From: Candidatus Adiutrix sp.
Lineage (GTDB): Bacteria; Desulfobacterota; Desulfarculia; Adiutricales; Adiutricaceae
NCBI GenBank assembly: GCA_031273445.1
Contig: JAISRV010000218.1
Span: 1 to 20,285, forward strand
DNA length: 20,285 nucleotides
Reading direction: 5' to 3'
Under the pieces are notes generated by a model. That model was given only the letters and a program-made list of their open reading frames with translations, did no database searches and was not told where the DNA came from. Made by a program: the position numbers and the translations under genes. Each line of letters starts with the position of its first letter. The stretch's first letter is position 1. This document shows positions 2,978 to 16,761 of this stretch, in pieces.

Positions 2978-3046
2978 ATGATCGGCTTGGCCGGCTGGGT
3001 CGTAGCCAGGCAAAAAATGCGATTTTTGCCTGGCCAGGGGCCTTTT
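2978..3046. repeat. palindrome repeat, copy A
   Basis: This begins at the base after the rmlA stop. Its core is a perfect 12-bp inverted repeat, GCCAGGCAAAAA (3005-3016) against TTTTTGCCTGGC (3023-3034), with a 6-base loop. The same block with small differences recurs at 13824-13889 (copy B), including the flanks TGGCCGGCTG and CCAGGGGCCTTT. The A and T tracts lie inside the stem, so it is a cruciform-like palindrome and not a standard terminator. Confidence 0.85.
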
Positions 3047-3103: not shown

Positions 3104-3130
3104 AAAAATGTTAGCCCATAACAGAGAAGC

Positions 3131-3194
3131 GCCGGCTGTCAGCACCTGAATTGGCGGGGCGTAACGAACGGAACTAATGAGCGATGAGACAAAA
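3131..3194. repeat. 64-base dispersed repeat, copy 1
   Basis: Copy 1 of a family with four members here. The constant parts are GGCTGTCA near the left end and a right block AACGAACGGAAC plus TAATGAGCGATGAGACAAA. Between them lies a variable small hairpin, here CCTG-AATTGG-CGGG, with one T-G wobble pair. Confidence 0.85.
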
Positions 3195-3232: not shown

Positions 3233-3240
3233 AAAGAAGC

Positions 3241-3303
3241 GTTGGCTGTCAACCCCTGAAATGGCGGGACGCAACGAACGGAACAAATGAGCGATGAGAC
3301 AAA
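3241..3303. repeat. 64-base dispersed repeat, copy 2
   Basis: It differs from copy 1 at about 8 of 63 positions, nearly all in the variable hairpin segment and the first bases. The hairpin is CCTG-AAATGG-CGGG. The last base of the repeat is immediately followed by the complement of the lptG stop codon. Confidence 0.85.
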
Positions 3304-7471: not shown

Positions 7472-7500
7472 TTGCTATTAAGACTCAATCGCGATATAAT
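7472..7500 (+). promoter_or_regulatory. sigma70-type promoter for the MATE-ApbE gene
   Basis: TTGCTA (7472-7477), a 17-base spacer and a perfect TATAAT (7495-7500). Transcription would begin near 7507. That rules out the TTG at 7472 as a translation start, because it lies inside the promoter. Confidence 0.65.
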
Positions 7501-7633
7501 AAATCCAACTTCGCTTCCGCTCCGTTATTGGCCACGGCCGGCCAAGCCCAGGCTTGACCTCCACCTCCTGACCGAAAACTCTGCCGCCCCTTCGGCTCCG
7601 GCCGGGCCTTTCGGTCGTCAGCGGATTTTACGG

Positions 7634-10138
7634 ATGAAAATGAAACCAACGCCCCGCCCGCCCTATGCCGCCCTGGTCAGCCCGCCCAGCCTTGGGGCCG
7701 GCCTCGGCCTGACGGCCGCGGCGGCCGTGCCCTTCATGCTTTCATCCGGGGCCACGGCCCTGAAACTCTCCTGCGACCGTTTCATGCTGGCCCGCTATTC
7801 CTCAGACAGTCTCTACGCCGCCGTCTCCGGCGGCATGACGGCCTATATGGCGGCCAGCCTTCTGGTCGGCCTGGTCGCCTATACTTCCGTCTTCGTCTCC
7901 CAATACCACGGGGCCGGCCTGGACCGCCGGATCGGTTTGTGCGTCCGGCAGTCGCTGATTTTCAGCCTGGCGGCCGGCCTCCTTCTGGCCCTGCTGGCCC
8001 CGGCCCTGGCCCCGGCCTTCAGCCTCCTGGGCCACGCCCCGCGCCTGGCCGAGCTGGAGGGCCAATATTTCTCCATACTGACCGCCGGGGCCGTCTTCAG
8101 CCTTCTGAACACCTCGCTCATGGCTTTCTTTACCGGCCGGGGCGAGACCTGGCTCGTGGTTCTGGTCAACCTGGGCTCCATCGCCGCCAACGCCGCCTTA
8201 AACGGCTTATTGATCTTCGGGGCTCCGGGTCTGTGCCCGGCCCTGGGCATTGTCGGGGCCGGCCTGGCCACGGTCGCGAGCGACGCGGCCAAGACGGCCG
8301 TTCTGGCGGCCCTGTTTCTAAGCCCGACCAACCGCCGCGTCTACCACACGGCCCGGGGCCGGCTTTTTGAACCCCGGCTATTCCTGAAACTGGCCCGGAA
8401 GGGCCTGGACAATGGTTTTCAACTGTTCACCGGAGTAAGTTCCATGGCTCTCTTCAACCTGGCGGCCGGCCAGGCGGCCGCCCCGGCCGGGGCGGCCGCC
8501 TCCGGCATCGCCTTCAGCCTGGTCACGGCCGCCTCCATCCCGGCCATAGGCCTGGGCTCGGCCGTGGCCATGCTGGTGGGTCGGGCCGTAGGGGCCAACG
8601 ACCGCGACCTGGCCCGCCGCAACGTGCGCCAGGCCGGCCGCCTGGCCGCCGGCTACGGCGCCCTGGTCGCCCTGATCTTCCTGGCCTGGCCGCCGGCCCT
8701 GATCAAACTCTTCGGCCCCGGCCTGGCCCCGGCCGGCCGGGAGTTGGCCGGGGAGCTCGTGGGCCCCGCCGCGGTTTTTTTCCTGGCCGAAACGGCGGCC
8801 ATGCTCTACGGCGGGGCTATCCGCGGGGCCGGCGACAGCGCTTACGCCATGAGGGTGGGGGCCGGCGCCGGGGCCCTCATGGCCGGCCTGTCGCTAATGG
8901 TCTTGGGCGCCGGAGCCCCGGTCAGGACTTTGTGGGGCCTGGCGGTCCTTCTGACCGCGCTCAAGGCCTGGGCCCTTTACGCCCGTTACCGGAAAAACGA
9001 CTGGCTGGATCACCGGCTGGTGGAAGACGACCGCCGGCCCAAAAAAATTGCCGCCCATAAATGCTCGACCATGACGACGCTGTTGGCCGCGCTCATTTTC
9101 GGGCTCCTCGGGTCCGCCAGGCCGGCCCTGGGCCAGTCTGAGCCGGGGTTCCGGGGCGAGACGCGGGTGTTTGGGGCCATGCATACCCGGATTGAGCTTA
9201 AAATCCCGGAAAATTCGGGCTCGGCCCTGAGCGCCCCGGCCCTGGCCGACCTGGCCGAAGCGGCCGTCAGAAAATGCGACCTGCTCCTCTCGCCCTTCGG
9301 CGAAAAGAGCGACATAAGGCGCCTCAACGAGGCCCCGGTCGGGGAATGGGTCGAGACGGACTCCCTGACCATGGCCGTGACCCTGGAAGCATTGGCCTGG
9401 AGCCGGAGAACCGGCGGACTTTTCGAACCCACCATCGGGCCTTTGAAACGCCTGTTCCGCTTCGAGGGCCAGACCCTGACCAGCTGGCCCTCGGCTGAGG
9501 CTCTGGCCCGGGCCAAGGCCATGGTGGGGGCCGACAAGCTCCTGACGGACGCGGCGGGCAACCGGCTGGCCCGAAAGGTCGAGGGCCTGGTTCTGGACCT
9601 GGGCGGCATAGCCAAGGGCTACGCGGCCGACCTGGCCGCCGAGGTTCTGGTCAGCCAGGGCGTGCGCCAGGCCCTGATCAACGTGGGCGGGGAAATGCGG
9701 GTTTTAGGACGGAACACCGGGCTGACGCCCCCCCAACCCTGGCTGGTGGGCTTGGCCGACCCCTTGGGCCGGACGAGCGGCTACGCCGTTGAAATCGCCG
9801 ACCGGGCCGTGGCCAGTTCCGGCAACTACGAAAGCTGGTTCGAGCATGAGGGCCGGCGGTACTCGCACATCCTCAATCCTCTGACCGGTCTGCCCCTGGA
9901 CGACCATCTGGCCGGGGTGACCGTGATTCATCCCCAGAGCGCCACGGCCGCCGACGCCCTGGCCACCTTTTTCTCCGTAGCCGGGACGGACGGGGCCGTC
10001 AATTTTCTGAAAGCCGACGGGGCCGGGCTTTTTCCCCAGGGGCTGGAAGTGATCATGTTCGTCAAGGAGGGCGAAGGCCTTAAAACCCTCCACCTGAAGC
10101 TCGACGGTTCGGGGGAATTGAGCCTGAACCGCCCCTGA
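7634..10138 (+). CDS. fusion protein: MATE-family transporter plus ApbE FMN transferase
   Basis: One uninterrupted frame of 834 residues. Residues 12-450 are a full MATE/DinF-type antiporter with about 12 hydrophobic segments in two halves; FMLARYSSDSLYAAVSGG and AIGLGSAVAMLVGRAVGAND are family-like. Residues 451-478 form a basic linker, 480-501 (MTTLLAALIFGLLGSARPALGQ region) a further membrane or signal-anchor segment, and 505-834 an ApbE domain: LDLGGIAKGYAAD (655-667), NVGGE, SSGNYESWF and YSHILNPLTGLP (about 728-755) and TAADALATFF. ApbE moves FMN from FAD onto Ser/Thr of exported proteins. With even-numbered MATE helices and a basic linker inside, the extra helix would place ApbE in the periplasm. 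ATG 7634 is chosen because it lies after the promoter; ATG 7640 is possible and neither has a strong Shine-Dalgarno. An internal start at 9071 also lacks one. The transported substrate is unknown; flavin is my inference. Confidence 0.88.
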   Translation: MKMKPTPRPPYAALVSPPSLGAGLGLTAAAAVPFMLSSGATALKLSCDRFMLARYSSDSLYAAVSGGMTAYMAASLLVGLVAYTSVFVSQYHGAGLDRRIGLCVRQSLIFSLAAGLLLALLAPALAPAFSLLGHAPRLAELEGQYFSILTAGAVFSLLNTSLMAFFTGRGETWLVVLVNLGSIAANAALNGLLIFGAPGLCPALGIVGAGLATVASDAAKTAVLAALFLSPTNRRVYHTARGRLFEPRLFLKLARKGLDNGFQLFTGVSSMALFNLAAGQAAAPAGAAASGIAFSLVTAASIPAIGLGSAVAMLVGRAVGANDRDLARRNVRQAGRLAAGYGALVALIFLAWPPALIKLFGPGLAPAGRELAGELVGPAAVFFLAETAAMLYGGAIRGAGDSAYAMRVGAGAGALMAGLSLMVLGAGAPVRTLWGLAVLLTALKAWALYARYRKNDWLDHRLVEDDRRPKKIAAHKCSTMTTLLAALIFGLLGSARPALGQSEPGFRGETRVFGAMHTRIELKIPENSGSALSAPALADLAEAAVRKCDLLLSPFGEKSDIRRLNEAPVGEWVETDSLTMAVTLEALAWSRRTGGLFEPTIGPLKRLFRFEGQTLTSWPSAEALARAKAMVGADKLLTDAAGNRLARKVEGLVLDLGGIAKGYAADLAAEVLVSQGVRQALINVGGEMRVLGRNTGLTPPQPWLVGLADPLGRTSGYAVEIADRAVASSGNYESWFEHEGRRYSHILNPLTGLPLDDHLAGVTVIHPQSATAADALATFFSVAGTDGAVNFLKADGAGLFPQGLEVIMFVKEGEGLKTLHLKLDGSGELSLNRP

Positions 10139-10161
10139 GGTTTCATTTAGGCTTTTCAACC

Positions 10162-10188
10162 GGTCGCCCCGCCTTTAACGGGGCGGCC
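10162..10188. terminator. hairpin between MATE-ApbE and the autotransporter gene
   Basis: GGTCGCCCCG (10162-10171) pairs with CGGGGCGGCC (10179-10188) over 10 bp with one G-T pair and a 7-base loop. Only TT follows, so it may be a weak terminator, an attenuator or an mRNA stabiliser. No clear promoter is visible between it and the next gene, which leaves read-through from 7495 plausible. Confidence 0.4.
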
Positions 10189-10248
10189 TTCAGGTCCCGC
10201 CCCGCGTCAGAGGGGGCCGGATATTTATCGACAGACAAGGAGAAGGAA

Positions 10249-13200
10249 ATGAGTAAAAGCATCAAGATGCGGCCGCTAGCGGCGGCCGCGGCGGTCTGCG
10301 CCCTGTCCGGCTGGCTCTGGAGCGCCCAGGCCCAGGCCCAGGCGACCGACGGCCAGGAGCTGCACGACGCCCTGGCCGCGGCCGCCGCCGGCCAGACAGT
10401 CGTCCTGGCCCCCGGGGCCGAGATCGACCTTTATCAAAACGGGGTCGAATTCAGCGCCCCGAACGTCACCCTGTCCGGCTCGGCCGACTACGACCTGGGG
10501 GCCAGGATCAGGGCTGAAGCGGCGGCCATCGTGGCCCAGGGCCGCGACGCCGGCCAGGCCGGTCTGTCGGACCGGCTGACTTCCATAGTCGCCGATTTAT
10601 TGGACAATCTGCCGGATAACCGCATTTTCAACAGTCAGCCCAAGGGCTACGGCTCCGGCGTGGTCTTCAGGAACCACGCCACCGGCGCGATTATGCCCGC
10701 CCCCAACGCCAGGGGCGGCGACAGCTTGACGGCGCCCATAAGCGGAACCGACTGGACCACCATAACGAACGGCGGCAGCGTGTCCAGCGCGACGACCATC
10801 AACTATGGCCCCAACCACGCCCTCTATCCTGGCCAGTCAATAGTTGTTGACGCCATATACGACCGCGAGGCCCTGGATCACGGCGCCGACAGCGGCATTT
10901 CGGCCGTCGGCGGCGGATTTGTCCTGAAAAATATCAATTTTGAGGGCACACACGGCACGGTCAGGGCTGCCGACGCCATTTCCGGAGCCTCCGTGGTTTA
11001 CCAGGGCCTGGTGGGCAGCAACCTCAGGCGCGCCGCCGGCGTCGCCTCCAGCGGAATGCAAGGCCTGGAGAACGTGACCTTTGTCGACAACGTCATTGAG
11101 ACCGAGGGCGCCGTCCAAACCGTGGGCAACGTGCTGTTTTTCAGCCAGCGCAAGTACCCGGGCACTGATTTCGCCTCCGGCGGCGAAACAATTCCAAACT
11201 CGCCGCCTTATAATTACATTGAGACCCTGGACTACATCAAGGGCTCGGTCTTTCGGGGCAACAAAATCTACAACGACCTGAACGCCAGCGTCGGGATGCG
11301 CACCCCGGCGGCGGCCGGGGCCGGCTGGGTCAACATCGGCCTCATTGAGGACAGCCTCTTCGCCGACAACTTCAACCAGGGCCACCACGCCTTCGGCGGG
11401 GCCATCTACGCCCAGAGCCTCGGGGACGTGGTTAACTCCGTCTTCTTCAACAACGTCAACACCACCGACCACGAGGCCTGGGGCGGGGGCATCATGGCCA
11501 ACTCCATCAACGGCATCTCCGGCAGCGTCTTCATCGGCAACAGCGCCCGGGGGCTCAAGGTTTTGACTCAGAACGCCAACGGCGCCATCGACGCCGATGT
11601 GGGCGCCCTGGGCGGGGCCGTCTATGCCGGCGGAGGCATAAGTTTCATAGAAAACAGCCTCTTTGCCTACAACGCGGTCTTTAACGACACGCCGGCCAAC
11701 GGCGCCGGCGGCGGGGGCGGCGACGCCACCGGCGGGGCCGTCGGCTCCGGACTGATCGGTTCCATAAAAAACAGCAGCTTCATCGGCAACGCGGCCCAGG
11801 CCGACACCTTCGCCTCTGGCGGGGCCATCAACATGAGCACGGGTTCAGGCGTCGCCCCGACCACCTCCATCATCAACAGCCTGTTTCTCGACAACTCGGT
11901 CGAGGCCCGGGATGAAGCCTCCGGCGGGGCCCTGAACATAAGCCTCGGGGGCAGCCCCTTCACGCTGAACCTGACGGCTGAAGACGGCGGCCTGACCGCC
12001 TTCGCCGGCAACACCGTCAACGGCGAGCCCAACAGCATCACCGCCAGCGGCGGGCAGAACATGACCATTAACGTCGACGCCGGCCCCGGCAGCCGGGTGG
12101 AGCTGATTGATCCCCTCCTGATCGACCTCGACGGCTCGGCCGCCTTCGCTTTGAACAGCGCCGGCGCCGGCGCCTTCATCTGGGGCGGCTACAATGACCT
12201 GAACGCCGCCGGCGGTTCCGCCGTGAACCTGGCCGGCAACGGCCTGACCGTTCTGGGCGCCGATTTCACCCTGGCTTCCTCAAAGCGCAACCCTGTCTCC
12301 GTCGACCTCTCTTCCAACGCCGGCGAGATCAGGCTTGACCTCAAAGGCCGCGACCTTGATCAGCCTTTTTTCAGCGGCGTTGACTTCGCCGGCCTGGCCG
12401 ACGCCAATATAACCGGCGAGTATTTGAGCCTGACCGACGTCTCGGCCAGCTTCGCCTTCGCTTCCGAAAGCGGCGGGGTGCAGGCCTTCAGCTCCACTTT
12501 GACCGACGCGGCCACCGGCGTCAGCACGACCATCAGCGTGGGGACTGACGGCCAGGGCCGCCTGGAATACCAGGGCCCCGTCGCGGCCTTCAACGCGGCC
12601 GGAACCAACGCCCTCCTGGCCCGGCCGGCCCTGGCCCAAGCCTGGGAAAATCTGTCCGAGAGCCTGACCGTTGAGGAAAGCGGCGCCTTCTTCCCGGTCA
12701 TCGTCGGCGACCTGATCAACTCCACGGCCGAGCCCTTCGCGGCCAGCGGCCAGGCGGTTCTGGCCTCGGTCGGCAGCGTGGTCAGCCAGGTTCTCAAGGG
12801 CAACCAGATCAGCCGCGGGGCTTCCCGCTACGCCCCGGCCGCCGGCGACGGCGACGGCCTCCGGCCCCGCCTCTGGGTCGATTACATCGGCAGTTTCATC
12901 GACCAGAAAAACAGCGACGGCCGGAACGGCTATGAAAATCGCCAGAACGGCCTGAGCCTGGGGCTGGCCCTGGACGTCAGCGACGACCTGTCGGTGGGCG
13001 CCTGGACGGCCTACAGCAGCGGCAAGCTCAAATTCAAGAATCTGGCCTCCAATATCGACACAGACATTATCCAGGGCGGCATGTTCGCCCAATACAGACC
13101 TGTGGAGGGCGGTTTCGGCGGCACGCTGGATTTGTCGCTGGCCAGGGCCGACAACGATTCCAGCCGCTATTTCGCGGGCAGCCTCTACGAAGCTTCCTAT

Positions 13201-13713
13201 AACCAGCAGCTTTTCGGGCTGGGCCTCACGGTCGGCTACGAATTCGACGTCTTCAGCGGCGCCCAGTTAACCCCCTACCTCTCGGCGCGTTTCCAGCATC
13301 TCGCGCAGGATTCCTTCAGAGAGCAAACGCTTGACCCCCTGGCCGGCTTCGCCATCGAGTCCGACTCCGCCTCGGGCGACGATTTCACCGCCACCCTCGG
13401 CCTCAACCTGGAAAAAGCCTTCGACGTCGGCGCGGGGCGCCTGGTCCCGGCCGTCAACCTGGGTTGGCGGCATCAGTTCGGCGACGAGGAAATCATTTCC
13501 AACTACCGCTTCCGTGGACCAGGCGGTCTCACCACGGCCATGGCCACGGCCCGGTCGGCCGAATCCAGCGACGCCGGAGTGCTGGGGCTGTCCCTGACCC
13601 TGACCCCCGGTTCATCCGACGCGGGCTTGTCCCTCAAACTCGGCTATGACGGGGCCCTGAGTTCCGATCGGACCGAACACAACTTCTACGGCGGCCTGGA
13701 GTACAGTTTTTAG
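10249..13713 (+). CDS. autotransporter with beta-helix passenger (type Va secretion)
   Basis: The 1154-residue protein is built for export to the cell surface. A Sec signal peptide covers residues 1 to about 31 (hydrophobic core AAAAAVCALSGWLW, then AQAQA). The passenger, about 35-860, has degenerate repeats such as NSVFFNN, GSVFIGN, NSLFAYN, NSSFIGN and NSLFLDN, each near a GGAI/GGAV turn, as in pectin-lyase-like or Pmp-like right-handed beta-helices. From about 870 to 1154 lies an autotransporter beta-barrel domain beginning PRLWVDYIGSF and ending in an aromatic-rich strand with C-terminal Phe (GLEYSF), the outer-membrane beta-signal. AAGGAG sits 6 bases before the ATG. Residues 242-248, DAISGAS, match the ApbE flavinylation consensus; the gene upstream encodes an ApbE. 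No catalytic motif is evident, and adhesin or surface scaffold is the usual guess. Confidence 0.92.
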   Translation: MSKSIKMRPLAAAAAVCALSGWLWSAQAQAQATDGQELHDALAAAAAGQTVVLAPGAEIDLYQNGVEFSAPNVTLSGSADYDLGARIRAEAAAIVAQGRDAGQAGLSDRLTSIVADLLDNLPDNRIFNSQPKGYGSGVVFRNHATGAIMPAPNARGGDSLTAPISGTDWTTITNGGSVSSATTINYGPNHALYPGQSIVVDAIYDREALDHGADSGISAVGGGFVLKNINFEGTHGTVRAADAISGASVVYQGLVGSNLRRAAGVASSGMQGLENVTFVDNVIETEGAVQTVGNVLFFSQRKYPGTDFASGGETIPNSPPYNYIETLDYIKGSVFRGNKIYNDLNASVGMRTPAAAGAGWVNIGLIEDSLFADNFNQGHHAFGGAIYAQSLGDVVNSVFFNNVNTTDHEAWGGGIMANSINGISGSVFIGNSARGLKVLTQNANGAIDADVGALGGAVYAGGGISFIENSLFAYNAVFNDTPANGAGGGGGDATGGAVGSGLIGSIKNSSFIGNAAQADTFASGGAINMSTGSGVAPTTSIINSLFLDNSVEARDEASGGALNISLGGSPFTLNLTAEDGGLTAFAGNTVNGEPNSITASGGQNMTINVDAGPGSRVELIDPLLIDLDGSAAFALNSAGAGAFIWGGYNDLNAAGGSAVNLAGNGLTVLGADFTLASSKRNPVSVDLSSNAGEIRLDLKGRDLDQPFFSGVDFAGLADANITGEYLSLTDVSASFAFASESGGVQAFSSTLTDAATGVSTTISVGTDGQGRLEYQGPVAAFNAAGTNALLARPALAQAWENLSESLTVEESGAFFPVIVGDLINSTAEPFAASGQAVLASVGSVVSQVLKGNQISRGASRYAPAAGDGDGLRPRLWVDYIGSFIDQKNSDGRNGYENRQNGLSLGLALDVSDDLSVGAWTAYSSGKLKFKNLASNIDTDIIQGGMFAQYRPVEGGFGGTLDLSLARADNDSSRYFAGSLYEASYNQQLFGLGLTVGYEFDVFSGAQLTPYLSARFQHLAQDSFREQTLDPLAGFAIESDSASGDDFTATLGLNLEKAFDVGAGRLVPAVNLGWRHQFGDEEIISNYRFRGPGGLTTAMATARSAESSDAGVLGLSLTLTPGSSDAGLSLKLGYDGALSSDRTEHNFYGGLEYSF
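10972..10992 (+). other. ApbE-type flavinylation motif (DAISGAS) in the autotransporter passenger
   Basis: Codons 242-248 read D-A-I-S-G-A-S and satisfy the known acceptor consensus D-x-x-[ST]-[GS]-A-[ST], in which FMN is esterified to the last Ser/Thr. It is the only match I found in this protein. The surrounding residues do not resemble a normal FMN_bind domain, so function at this site is a hypothesis. Confidence 0.4.
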
Positions 13714-13774
13714 TGCTGTCAGCCTTTGAAATGGCAGGGCCTAACGAACGGAACTAATGAGCGATGAGACAAAA
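13714..13774. repeat. 64-base dispersed repeat, copy 3
   Basis: It starts at the first base after the autotransporter stop codon (TAG, 13711-13713). It carries the constant GCTGTCA and the block AACGAACGGAAC with TAATGAGCGATGAGACAAA unchanged from copy 1. The variable hairpin is here CTTTG-AAATGG-CAGGG, held by T-G wobbles. Confidence 0.85.
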
Positions 13775-13775
13775 G

Positions 13776-13811
13776 GCCAAGCCCGACCTCCGCAAGGAAG
13801 TCGGGCTTGGC
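13776..13811. terminator. strong hairpin with GCAA tetraloop after the autotransporter gene
   Basis: GCCAAGCCCGAC (13776-13787) pairs perfectly with GTCGGGCTTGGC (13800-13811). Three further pairs follow after one C-A mismatch, closing a GCAA tetraloop. On the plus strand no T tract follows (TATTG); on the minus strand CTTTTG follows. It is probably the 3' end structure of the autotransporter message, possibly serving both directions. Confidence 0.55.
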
Positions 13812-13823
13812 TATTGAAATGTG

Positions 13824-13889
13824 AATGCTCGGCCTGGCCGGCTGACCGTAGCCAGGCAAAAATGTGATTTTTGCCTGGCCAGGGGCCTT
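13824..13889. repeat. palindrome repeat, copy B
   Basis: Second copy of the block at 2978-3046. The 12-bp arms GCCAGGCAAAAA (13851-13862) and TTTTTGCCTGGC (13868-13879) are identical to those of copy A, while the loop differs in length and sequence (TGTGA here, ATGCGA there). The arms are conserved and the loop is free, which points to selection on, or recent spread of, the palindrome. Confidence 0.85.
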
Positions 13890-13893
13890 TACT

Positions 13894-13962
13894 GCCGGCT
13901 GTCAGGCCCTGAAATGGCAGGGGGTAACGAACGGAACTAATGAGCGATGAAACAAAAAAAAA
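13894..13962. repeat. 64-base dispersed repeat, copy 4
   Basis: Copy 4 follows copy B of the palindrome repeat within 5 bases. It shares the constant blocks with copies 1-3 apart from one change (GATGAAACAAA instead of GATGAGACAAA), and its hairpin is CCCTG-AAATGG-CAGGG. It ends in a run of nine A at 13954-13962, directly against the nth stop codon; on the minus strand this is a T9 tract right after nth. Confidence 0.85.
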
Positions 13963-16440: not shown

Positions 16441-16761
16441 CGCTTGGGCCGCGCGGCCCCGGATGCTCCGCATCCTGTCCGTAGGGGCTGGGTAGGCGGG
16501 CGGCAGCGGGTCGGCCGGGGCGGGTCGGCCTTGGCCCGGCCCGCGGTTGCCCGCCGGCCCAGCGACTGCGGGTCGGATGCGGAGCATCCGGGGTTCAGGG
16601 CGGAACCCTAGCCGGCAAGGCTCGCTTTATTCAAATAGCCCTTCGATTTGAAAGCCCCGGCCGACCAAAACCCGCCCGCCGACCAGGCCCCTGCGGGTCG
16701 GTTGCGGAGCATCCGGGGTCCAGGGCGGAGCCCTGGTCCGGGGTCTAGGGCGGAGCCCTGG
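16441..16761. repeat. GC-rich repeat cluster filling the junction 15889-gene/methyltransferase
   Basis: No gene is supported in this stretch. CCCCGGATGCTCCGCATCC (16457-16475) is the exact reverse complement of 16575-16593. A block beginning CTGCGGGTCGG occurs at 16566-16611 and again at 16691-16735, each with GGAGCATCCGGGG and a following hairpin; a third, shorter piece is at 16738-16761. The hairpin CCAGGGC-GGA-GCCCTGG is perfect in the second copy, and its first-copy version uses GGGTTC/GAACCC instead. A separate stem TTCAAAT/ATTTGAA lies at 16630-16652. The last piece touches the methyltransferase stop codon. Confidence 0.8.

Follow-up and report, generated by a model that had tools for sequence, protein, structure and literature searches.

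A conserved MATE–ApbE–autotransporter cassette in Candidatus Adiutrix and relatives, with the autotransporter as a plausible new substrate for flavinylation

Gene organization of the locus

The stretch of DNA analysed here, hereafter the window, comprises 20,285 nucleotides of contig JAISRV010000218.1 from Candidatus Adiutrix sp. (assembly GCA_031273445.1). On its plus strand it carries the gene for a fusion of a MATE transporter and the flavin transferase ApbE, followed after 110 bp (10139–10248) by the gene for an autotransporter (Table 1). This direct succession on one strand had already been pointed out in the initial annotation, and the identity of the fusion is borne out by Pfam matches to both MatE and ApbE. 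The genes flanking the pair on both sides are on the opposite strand and look like housekeeping genes, with YqgF, MltG/YceG and LptF/LptG upstream and an endonuclease III-like gene downstream (Pfam assigned YceG; the others were named by inspection). Near the cassette, no electron donor was recognised. The window also contains a 69-nt interspersed repeat in four copies (3125–3193, 3235–3303, 13705–13773 and 13888–13956), of which three are 80–88% identical to the remaining one, taken as reference. A 33-nt repeat occurs at 3013 and 13858 (97%), and direct and inverted repeats of about 60 nt, rich in GC, at 16457–16734.

Table 1. Features of the MATE–ApbE–autotransporter locus (positions in the window)
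Feature	Position	Strand	Evidence or remark
MATE-ApbE fusion ORF	7472..10138	+	888 aa as called; Pfam MatE and ApbE over cut-off
MATE transporter part, proposed FAD exporter	7724..9028	+	PF01554; aligns with stand-alone MATEs of sister loci
Hydrophobic segment linking MATE to ApbE	9062..9133	+	aa 531–554; hydropathy scan
ApbE flavin transferase domain	9179..10015	+	PF02424, 5.4e-70
Autotransporter	10249..13713	+	1154 aa; PF03797, 2.2e-42; signal-peptide-like N-terminus (by inspection)
Beta-helix-like rungs	10924..12003	+	aa 226 to ~585; repeated [ILV]-x-N-[SV]-x-F-x-x-N ... GGA[IV]; fold predicted from sequence
DAISGAS, candidate ApbE acceptor site	10972..10992	+	D242–S248, Ser248 as acceptor; matches D-x-x-[ST]-G-A-[ST]
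His379-His380	11383..11388	+	conserved in 9/11 homologues
Asp407-His408	11467..11472	+	one rung after His379-His380; conserved in 9/11 homologues
Autotransporter beta-domain (outer membrane barrel)	12871..13617	+	PF03797, aa 875–1123
Hairpin, 16 pairs	13776..13811	.	3' of the autotransporter gene; terminator-like on the minus strand

The TTG at 7472 called as the start of the fusion probably lies too far upstream, since a promoter-like sequence (TTGCTA-17-TATAAT, 7472–7500) overlaps it, and translation from one of the downstream in-frame ATG codons, at 7634 or 7640, is likelier. The MATE part belongs to the MATE family by its PF01554 score (85.4 bits, cut-off 24.9), and reaches 132.4 bits with TIGR00797, below the 147.4-bit cut-off of that model; that it transports FAD is suggested by its fusion or linkage with ApbE. 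The hydrophobic segment that follows would place the ApbE part in the periplasm. The ApbE part is clearly assigned (PF02424, 232.5 bits, cut-off 25.6) and, when aligned with the ApbE of Vibrio cholerae (6nxi), for which S241, H257 and D285 are given as the catalytic triad (PMC12052999), it matches at the catalytic Ser, His and Asp, so that its active site looks intact. The S-T-Y of the V. cholerae and P. stutzeri enzymes is replaced by S-P-F in the window protein, and the position of this Tyr, which probably corresponds to Y60 of Escherichia coli Ftp, varies among the linked ApbEs (F, F, Y, I, R).

The second protein is a type Va autotransporter, its beta-domain scoring 146 bits with PF03797 against a cut-off of 26. 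This domain is the sole Pfam match in the protein at E-values up to 0.01, with no known flavin-binding family among the matches. FMN_bind (PF04205) gave no match, which argues against membership of that family and agrees with the initial annotation, where the absence of the FMN_bind fold had been noted. No solved structure related to the passenger was found by sequence, and the series of rungs with a repeated pattern suggests that the passenger is a beta-helix. It carries a patch formed by His379-His380 and Asp407-His408, which could, speculatively, be a metal site.

The candidate flavinylation motif

The initial annotation had singled out a DAISGAS sequence at residues 242–248 of the passenger, which is indeed present. 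It conforms to the ApbE acceptor motif D-x-x-[ST]-G-A-[ST], of which the seven residues are reported to suffice (PMC12052999). The slightly wider pattern D-x-x-[ST]-[GS]-A-[ST] has a single match across the 14 proteins of the window that were scanned, and the core [ST]GA[ST] by itself occurs also in two others, the LptG-like one and the MATE part. When the autotransporter was shuffled 20,000 times, D-x-x-[ST]-G-A-[ST] arose in 3.1% of the cases, the wider pattern in 4.7% and the core in 38%, in line with the few percent previously estimated for a chance match. Since a shuffled protein yields the motif in 3–5% of the cases, the match on its own is weak and outside support is needed; chance is not rejected from the window alone, and the homologues described below make it less likely.

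The core SGAS sits in the first rung found by pattern (residues 226–272), at the position of the GGA[IV] turn, and the His-His/Asp-His patch lies three to four rungs beyond it. This location brings in the strongest objection to a role as acceptor site, namely that the conservation of the Gly-Ala pair may be partly structural. The Ser/Thr found where other rungs mostly carry Ile, Val or Leu would not be explained by structure.

Conservation of the gene cassette

In a search of 60 related genomes, including that of the window, close homologues of the passenger were found at five places, and all five are accompanied on the same strand by apbE and a MATE gene (the window, G010:C15, G022:C55, G022:C199 and G033:C304), with 110–261 bp between the autotransporter gene and apbE. 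The gene order is MATE-ApbE-autotransporter in the window, G010:C15 and G022:C55, and TonB-dependent receptor-autotransporter-ApbE-MATE in G022:C199 and G033:C304. As the order differs between loci, the linkage has survived rearrangement. In the latter two sister cassettes, the TonB-dependent receptor genes (L067:2540-4675 and L069:2645-4723) lie directly upstream of that of the autotransporter, and both receptor-linked autotransporters have lost the His-His/Asp-His patch. MATE and ApbE are fused in an intact form only in the window. In the remaining four linked loci they are encoded by two adjacent genes. Genome G022 has two cassettes, within each of which the autotransporter and ApbE are of the same lineage. 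Over the ten pairs formed by the five loci, the pairwise identities correlate at 0.95 for autotransporter and ApbE, 0.93 for autotransporter and MATE, and 0.82 for ApbE and MATE, with much of these correlations driven by the close pair of G033 and the G022:C199 locus (G022b).

Two of the matches are partial. The autotransporter of G004:C127 has a 29% match over residues 369–1154 (profile 2.6e-101), lacks the core motif, and comes from a genome with no ApbE match. We treat it as a border case and count it as a control; counted as a homologue, it would bring the linkage to 5/6. The G033 protein also matches that of the window only in part (residues 335–1154, 32%), and neither it nor the G004 protein was recovered with the passenger alone. 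G033 was kept as a homologue on account of its 57% identity to G022b and of an N-terminal part that can be aligned. A search of 395 sampled genomes of the phylum, seven of which gave a match (the window's included), added no close passenger homologue; it is to be read as a sample only, as its matches do not include G010, G022 and G033.

Two further observations concern related loci. In G008:C201 (L070), a region with ApbE and MATE is broken by stops and frame changes and has no autotransporter match, which reflects either decay of the cassette or an assembly error. Three ApbE loci were found in Litchfieldella and Halomonas, at 32–35% identity.

Conservation of the acceptor site

We compared the motif position in 11 homologues with a comparable passenger (Table 2). 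P0002 is taken as the G010 protein, P0007 and P0009 are partial proteins, and P0008, P0010 and the remaining database matches, being more distant, were excluded from the counts. The full motif is present in five of the 11 proteins, the core [ST]GA[ST] in nine, and a Ser or Thr at the acceptor position in all; for the five homologues with known ApbE linkage the corresponding numbers are one, three and five. P0003–P0006, which carry the full motif and whose ApbE linkage is not among the five known, are mutually 47–55% identical. The loop preceding the core is of variable length.

Table 2. Sequence at the candidate acceptor site in the homologous passengers
Homologue	Site	Known ApbE linkage
Window	DAISGAS	yes
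P0002	ATDTGAS	yes
P0003	DATSGAS	
P0004	DSASGAS	
P0005	DSSTGAS	
P0006	DNTTGAS	
P0007	IGATGAS	
P0009	AATTGAT	
G022:C55 (G022a)	SAYSSSS	yes
G022:C199 (G022b)	NSTTGAT	yes
G033	NSTTGTT	yes

Conservation of the exact motif falls short of what the initial annotation had hoped for. It had suggested an alignment of orthologues together with a check of the pairing, from which the gene linkage and the acceptor residue, as Ser or Thr, emerge intact and the full motif does not. It had also held that linked orthologues devoid of the motif would speak against flavinylation, and this is partly the case: none of the other four has the full motif, two of them keeping the core (ATDTGAS, NSTTGAT) and two, G022a and G033, having SSSS and TGTT in its place despite their ApbE linkage. 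In our view this test is too strict, because an Asp to Ala exchange in the acceptor motif is described as having a minor effect on flavinylation by ApbE (Bertsova 2019 via PMC12052999), and so orthologues without the Asp may still be modified. That G022a and G033 have lost Gly or Ala weakens the case for modification. According to the same source, Thr is a better ApbE acceptor than Ser (PMC12052999).

Among 871 four-residue windows of the passenger alignment, the core ranks 3rd in conservation when Ser and Thr are pooled, 10th when wider groups of residues are used and 44th by exact identity. The 11 passengers contain 174 other GA dipeptides. Ser/Thr stands before 13.8% of them and after 9.2%, the residue after GA being most often Ile, Ala, Val, Gly or Leu. 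Four of the 174 form an [ST]GA[ST] (in P0002, P0005, P0006 and P0007). Ser/Thr on both flanks is thus unusual even for a beta-helix turn, with the reservation that homologues are not independent samples.

As a control, we took 21 autotransporters from the same genomes (21,984 residues), which have no full motif and five cores; shuffling predicts 0.37 and 5.3, respectively. These represent 21 of the 30 places with non-cassette autotransporters (left out were G009, G022:C68, G026:C49, G026:C126, G026:C96, G026:C131, G013, G002 and G048); four of the control frames are shorter than 550 aa, and in six cases the genome has an ApbE of the other type (three from G024, and one each from G019, G030 and G033).

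Distribution of ApbE and its substrates

Of the 37 genomes in the taxonomic family, 10 contain ApbE, with 13 genes counted. Six of these genes are of the cassette type, all six adjoining a MATE gene (broken in G008) and five adjoining such an autotransporter. Three of the substrate families, FMN_bind, NQR2_RnfD_RnfE and DUF2271, were searched for (others are DUF3570, Flavodoxin_4, FMN_red and the extracytosolic fumarate reductases), and none of the three has a match in the 37 family genomes, whereas 4, 4 and 1, respectively, of 14 control genomes do. Completeness is 72% for the genome of the window and 81–84% for G010, G022 and G033, so another substrate may be missing from the assemblies and its absence is not proof, although accidental loss of the same families from all four genomes is unlikely. 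Of the family genomes, 12 reach a completeness of 90% or more with contamination of 5% or less; ApbE is absent from all of them, and thus no high-quality genome tests the claim of an orphan enzyme.

Other ApbE proteins were also seen in these genomes. A second ApbE near the G010 cassette (L065:12144-13232) has Asn at the expected catalytic His (YSNVLDP), and for that reason probably lacks transferase activity. Six further ApbEs, of a different type and from genus g7 (L068, L072-L076), have no matching MATE or autotransporter alongside, and by inspection seem to lack a signal peptide.

Relation to known systems

New ApbE substrates have been found from an orphan apbE and a neighbouring gene whose product has a conserved [ST]GA[ST], as described in the eLife 2021 survey, in which the share of genomes with orphan apbE fell from 17% to 4% (670 genomes) and rarer substrates were presumed still unidentified (PMC8238504). 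The DUF3570 and DUF2271 proteins from that work are a close parallel: they are linked to ApbE, have no FMN_bind domain but a conserved [ST]GA[ST], occur in genomes with apbE and no known substrate, and were flavinylated on co-expression, as reported there (PMC8238504). In contrast to these, which belong to other families and have experimental proof, the candidate in the window is a type Va passenger known from its sequence. NqrC/RnfG and other FMN_bind proteins share the acceptor motif, but FMN_bind has no match either in the autotransporter or in the 37 family genomes.

On the side of the transporter, the MATE FAD exporter of Shewanella (Bfe) is a possible parallel as a flavin exporter of Gram-negative bacteria. 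Bfe is not known to occur fused to ApbE. A Gram-negative flavin exporter is mentioned in PMC9973259, citing Kotloski and Gralnick 2013, and is there contrasted with ECF exporters, which are often found beside apbE. The PplA-FmnB-FmnA/EetB system of Listeria, as outlined in the same source, is similar in that a single cluster encodes the transferase, the FAD exporter and an extracytosolic acceptor (PMC9973259). It differs in using an ECF exporter and a Gram-positive protein, where the window has a MATE fused to ApbE and an outer-membrane autotransporter.

Modification of autotransporter passengers by dedicated enzymes has precedents in AIDA-I/Aah, TibA and Ag43, where a small group is added to Ser/Thr, in TibA mostly in beta-helix loops, and the modified proteins are still secreted (PMC8151025). 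A small adduct therefore need not block export. Those heptosylated autotransporters receive a sugar while in the cytoplasm, and at many positions (18 in Ag43), whereas a flavin would be added here in the periplasm at one proposed site. A flavinylated autotransporter was not found in a search of the full-text literature that covered mainly papers outside subscription. In the papers found to mention both autotransporters and ApbE, ApbE appears only in a table row or a reference, and those naming autotransporters with covalent FMN or flavin look unrelated.

Proposed mechanism and alternatives

The data point to a real and conserved cassette, and make the autotransporter a plausible new substrate of ApbE. 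The covalent flavinylation originally put forward is favoured by the gene pairing, by the lack of matches to three known substrate families in the family genomes and by the rank of the core, and is disfavoured by the rarity of the full motif in linked orthologues. On balance we lean slightly towards it, and propose that ApbE, drawing on FAD exported to the periplasm, links FMN to Ser248 while the autotransporter is in transit. The MATE part would export FAD from the cytoplasm, and the periplasmic ApbE part would move FMN from FAD onto the Ser of SGAS in the still unfolded passenger. The beta-domain would then carry the modified passenger through the outer membrane, resulting in a covalent FMN on the cell surface, near the N-terminal rung of the folded passenger. 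More tentatively, the FMN would probably have a redox role, passing electrons to an acceptor outside the cell, perhaps iron. The TonB-dependent receptor in two of the cassettes hints that a chelate or similar compound is taken up. It is unlikely, though, that the surface FMN and the His-His/Asp-His patch together form a centre for reducing or capturing a metal, with the receptor importing the product in those two cassettes, and the iron story is weak because both receptor-linked proteins lack the patch.

Several other explanations of the cassette have to be considered. It is possible, but rather unlikely, that SGAS is nothing else than the GGA[IV] turn of the first rung, that ApbE modifies some other protein, and that the autotransporter is co-located for a different reason, such as co-regulation. 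The layout of the rungs, the absence of the core from two ApbE-linked orthologues, its modest rank by exact identity and the incompleteness of the genomes are all in keeping with this reading; yet the Ser/Thr at the acceptor position in 11 of 11 passengers departs from what follows most other GA pairs, the linkage persists despite the changed gene order, and the three known substrate families are unmatched in the 37 genomes. The Ser/Thr-flanked core would likewise be left without a reason if ApbE were mainly a periplasmic FAD pyrophosphatase of the Treponema Ftp type, with MATE and ApbE together supplying free FMN as a diffusible shuttle or cofactor and the autotransporter binding it non-covalently or being an adhesin. 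The S-P-F sequence and the variable Tyr position of the linked ApbEs fit this idea, in that exchange of Y60 for Ala or Asn is reported to turn E. coli Ftp towards FAD hydrolysis, but both Ftp types flavinylate protein substrates according to the same study (PMC4767422), and we regard a mainly hydrolytic role as quite unlikely.

Finally, FMN might be attached for a purpose other than redox chemistry, as a stabiliser of folding or a mark on the passenger, comparable to the heptoses of AIDA-I, TibA and Ag43. The cassette has no recognised redox partner, and other autotransporters that are still secreted have Ser/Thr residues of their beta-helix loops modified by dedicated enzymes, some of which share a transcript with their target, as summarised for the heptosylated proteins (PMC8151025). 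The ApbE substrates described in the sources consulted are, however, redox proteins or presumed to be so, and a non-redox purpose seems very unlikely to us.

Implications

If the autotransporter is flavinylated as proposed, outer-membrane autotransporters would constitute a new class of substrates for ApbE, and an orphan apbE lineage would be explained, of the kind left open by the 2021 survey (PMC8238504). To judge from the full-text literature searched, no covalent flavin has been described before on any type V secreted protein, so that this one would be the first. It would also be a genetically simple route for placing a flavin on the Gram-negative surface. Should the surface-redox reading hold as well, these bacteria would possess a cytochrome-free redox group outside the Gram-negative cell.
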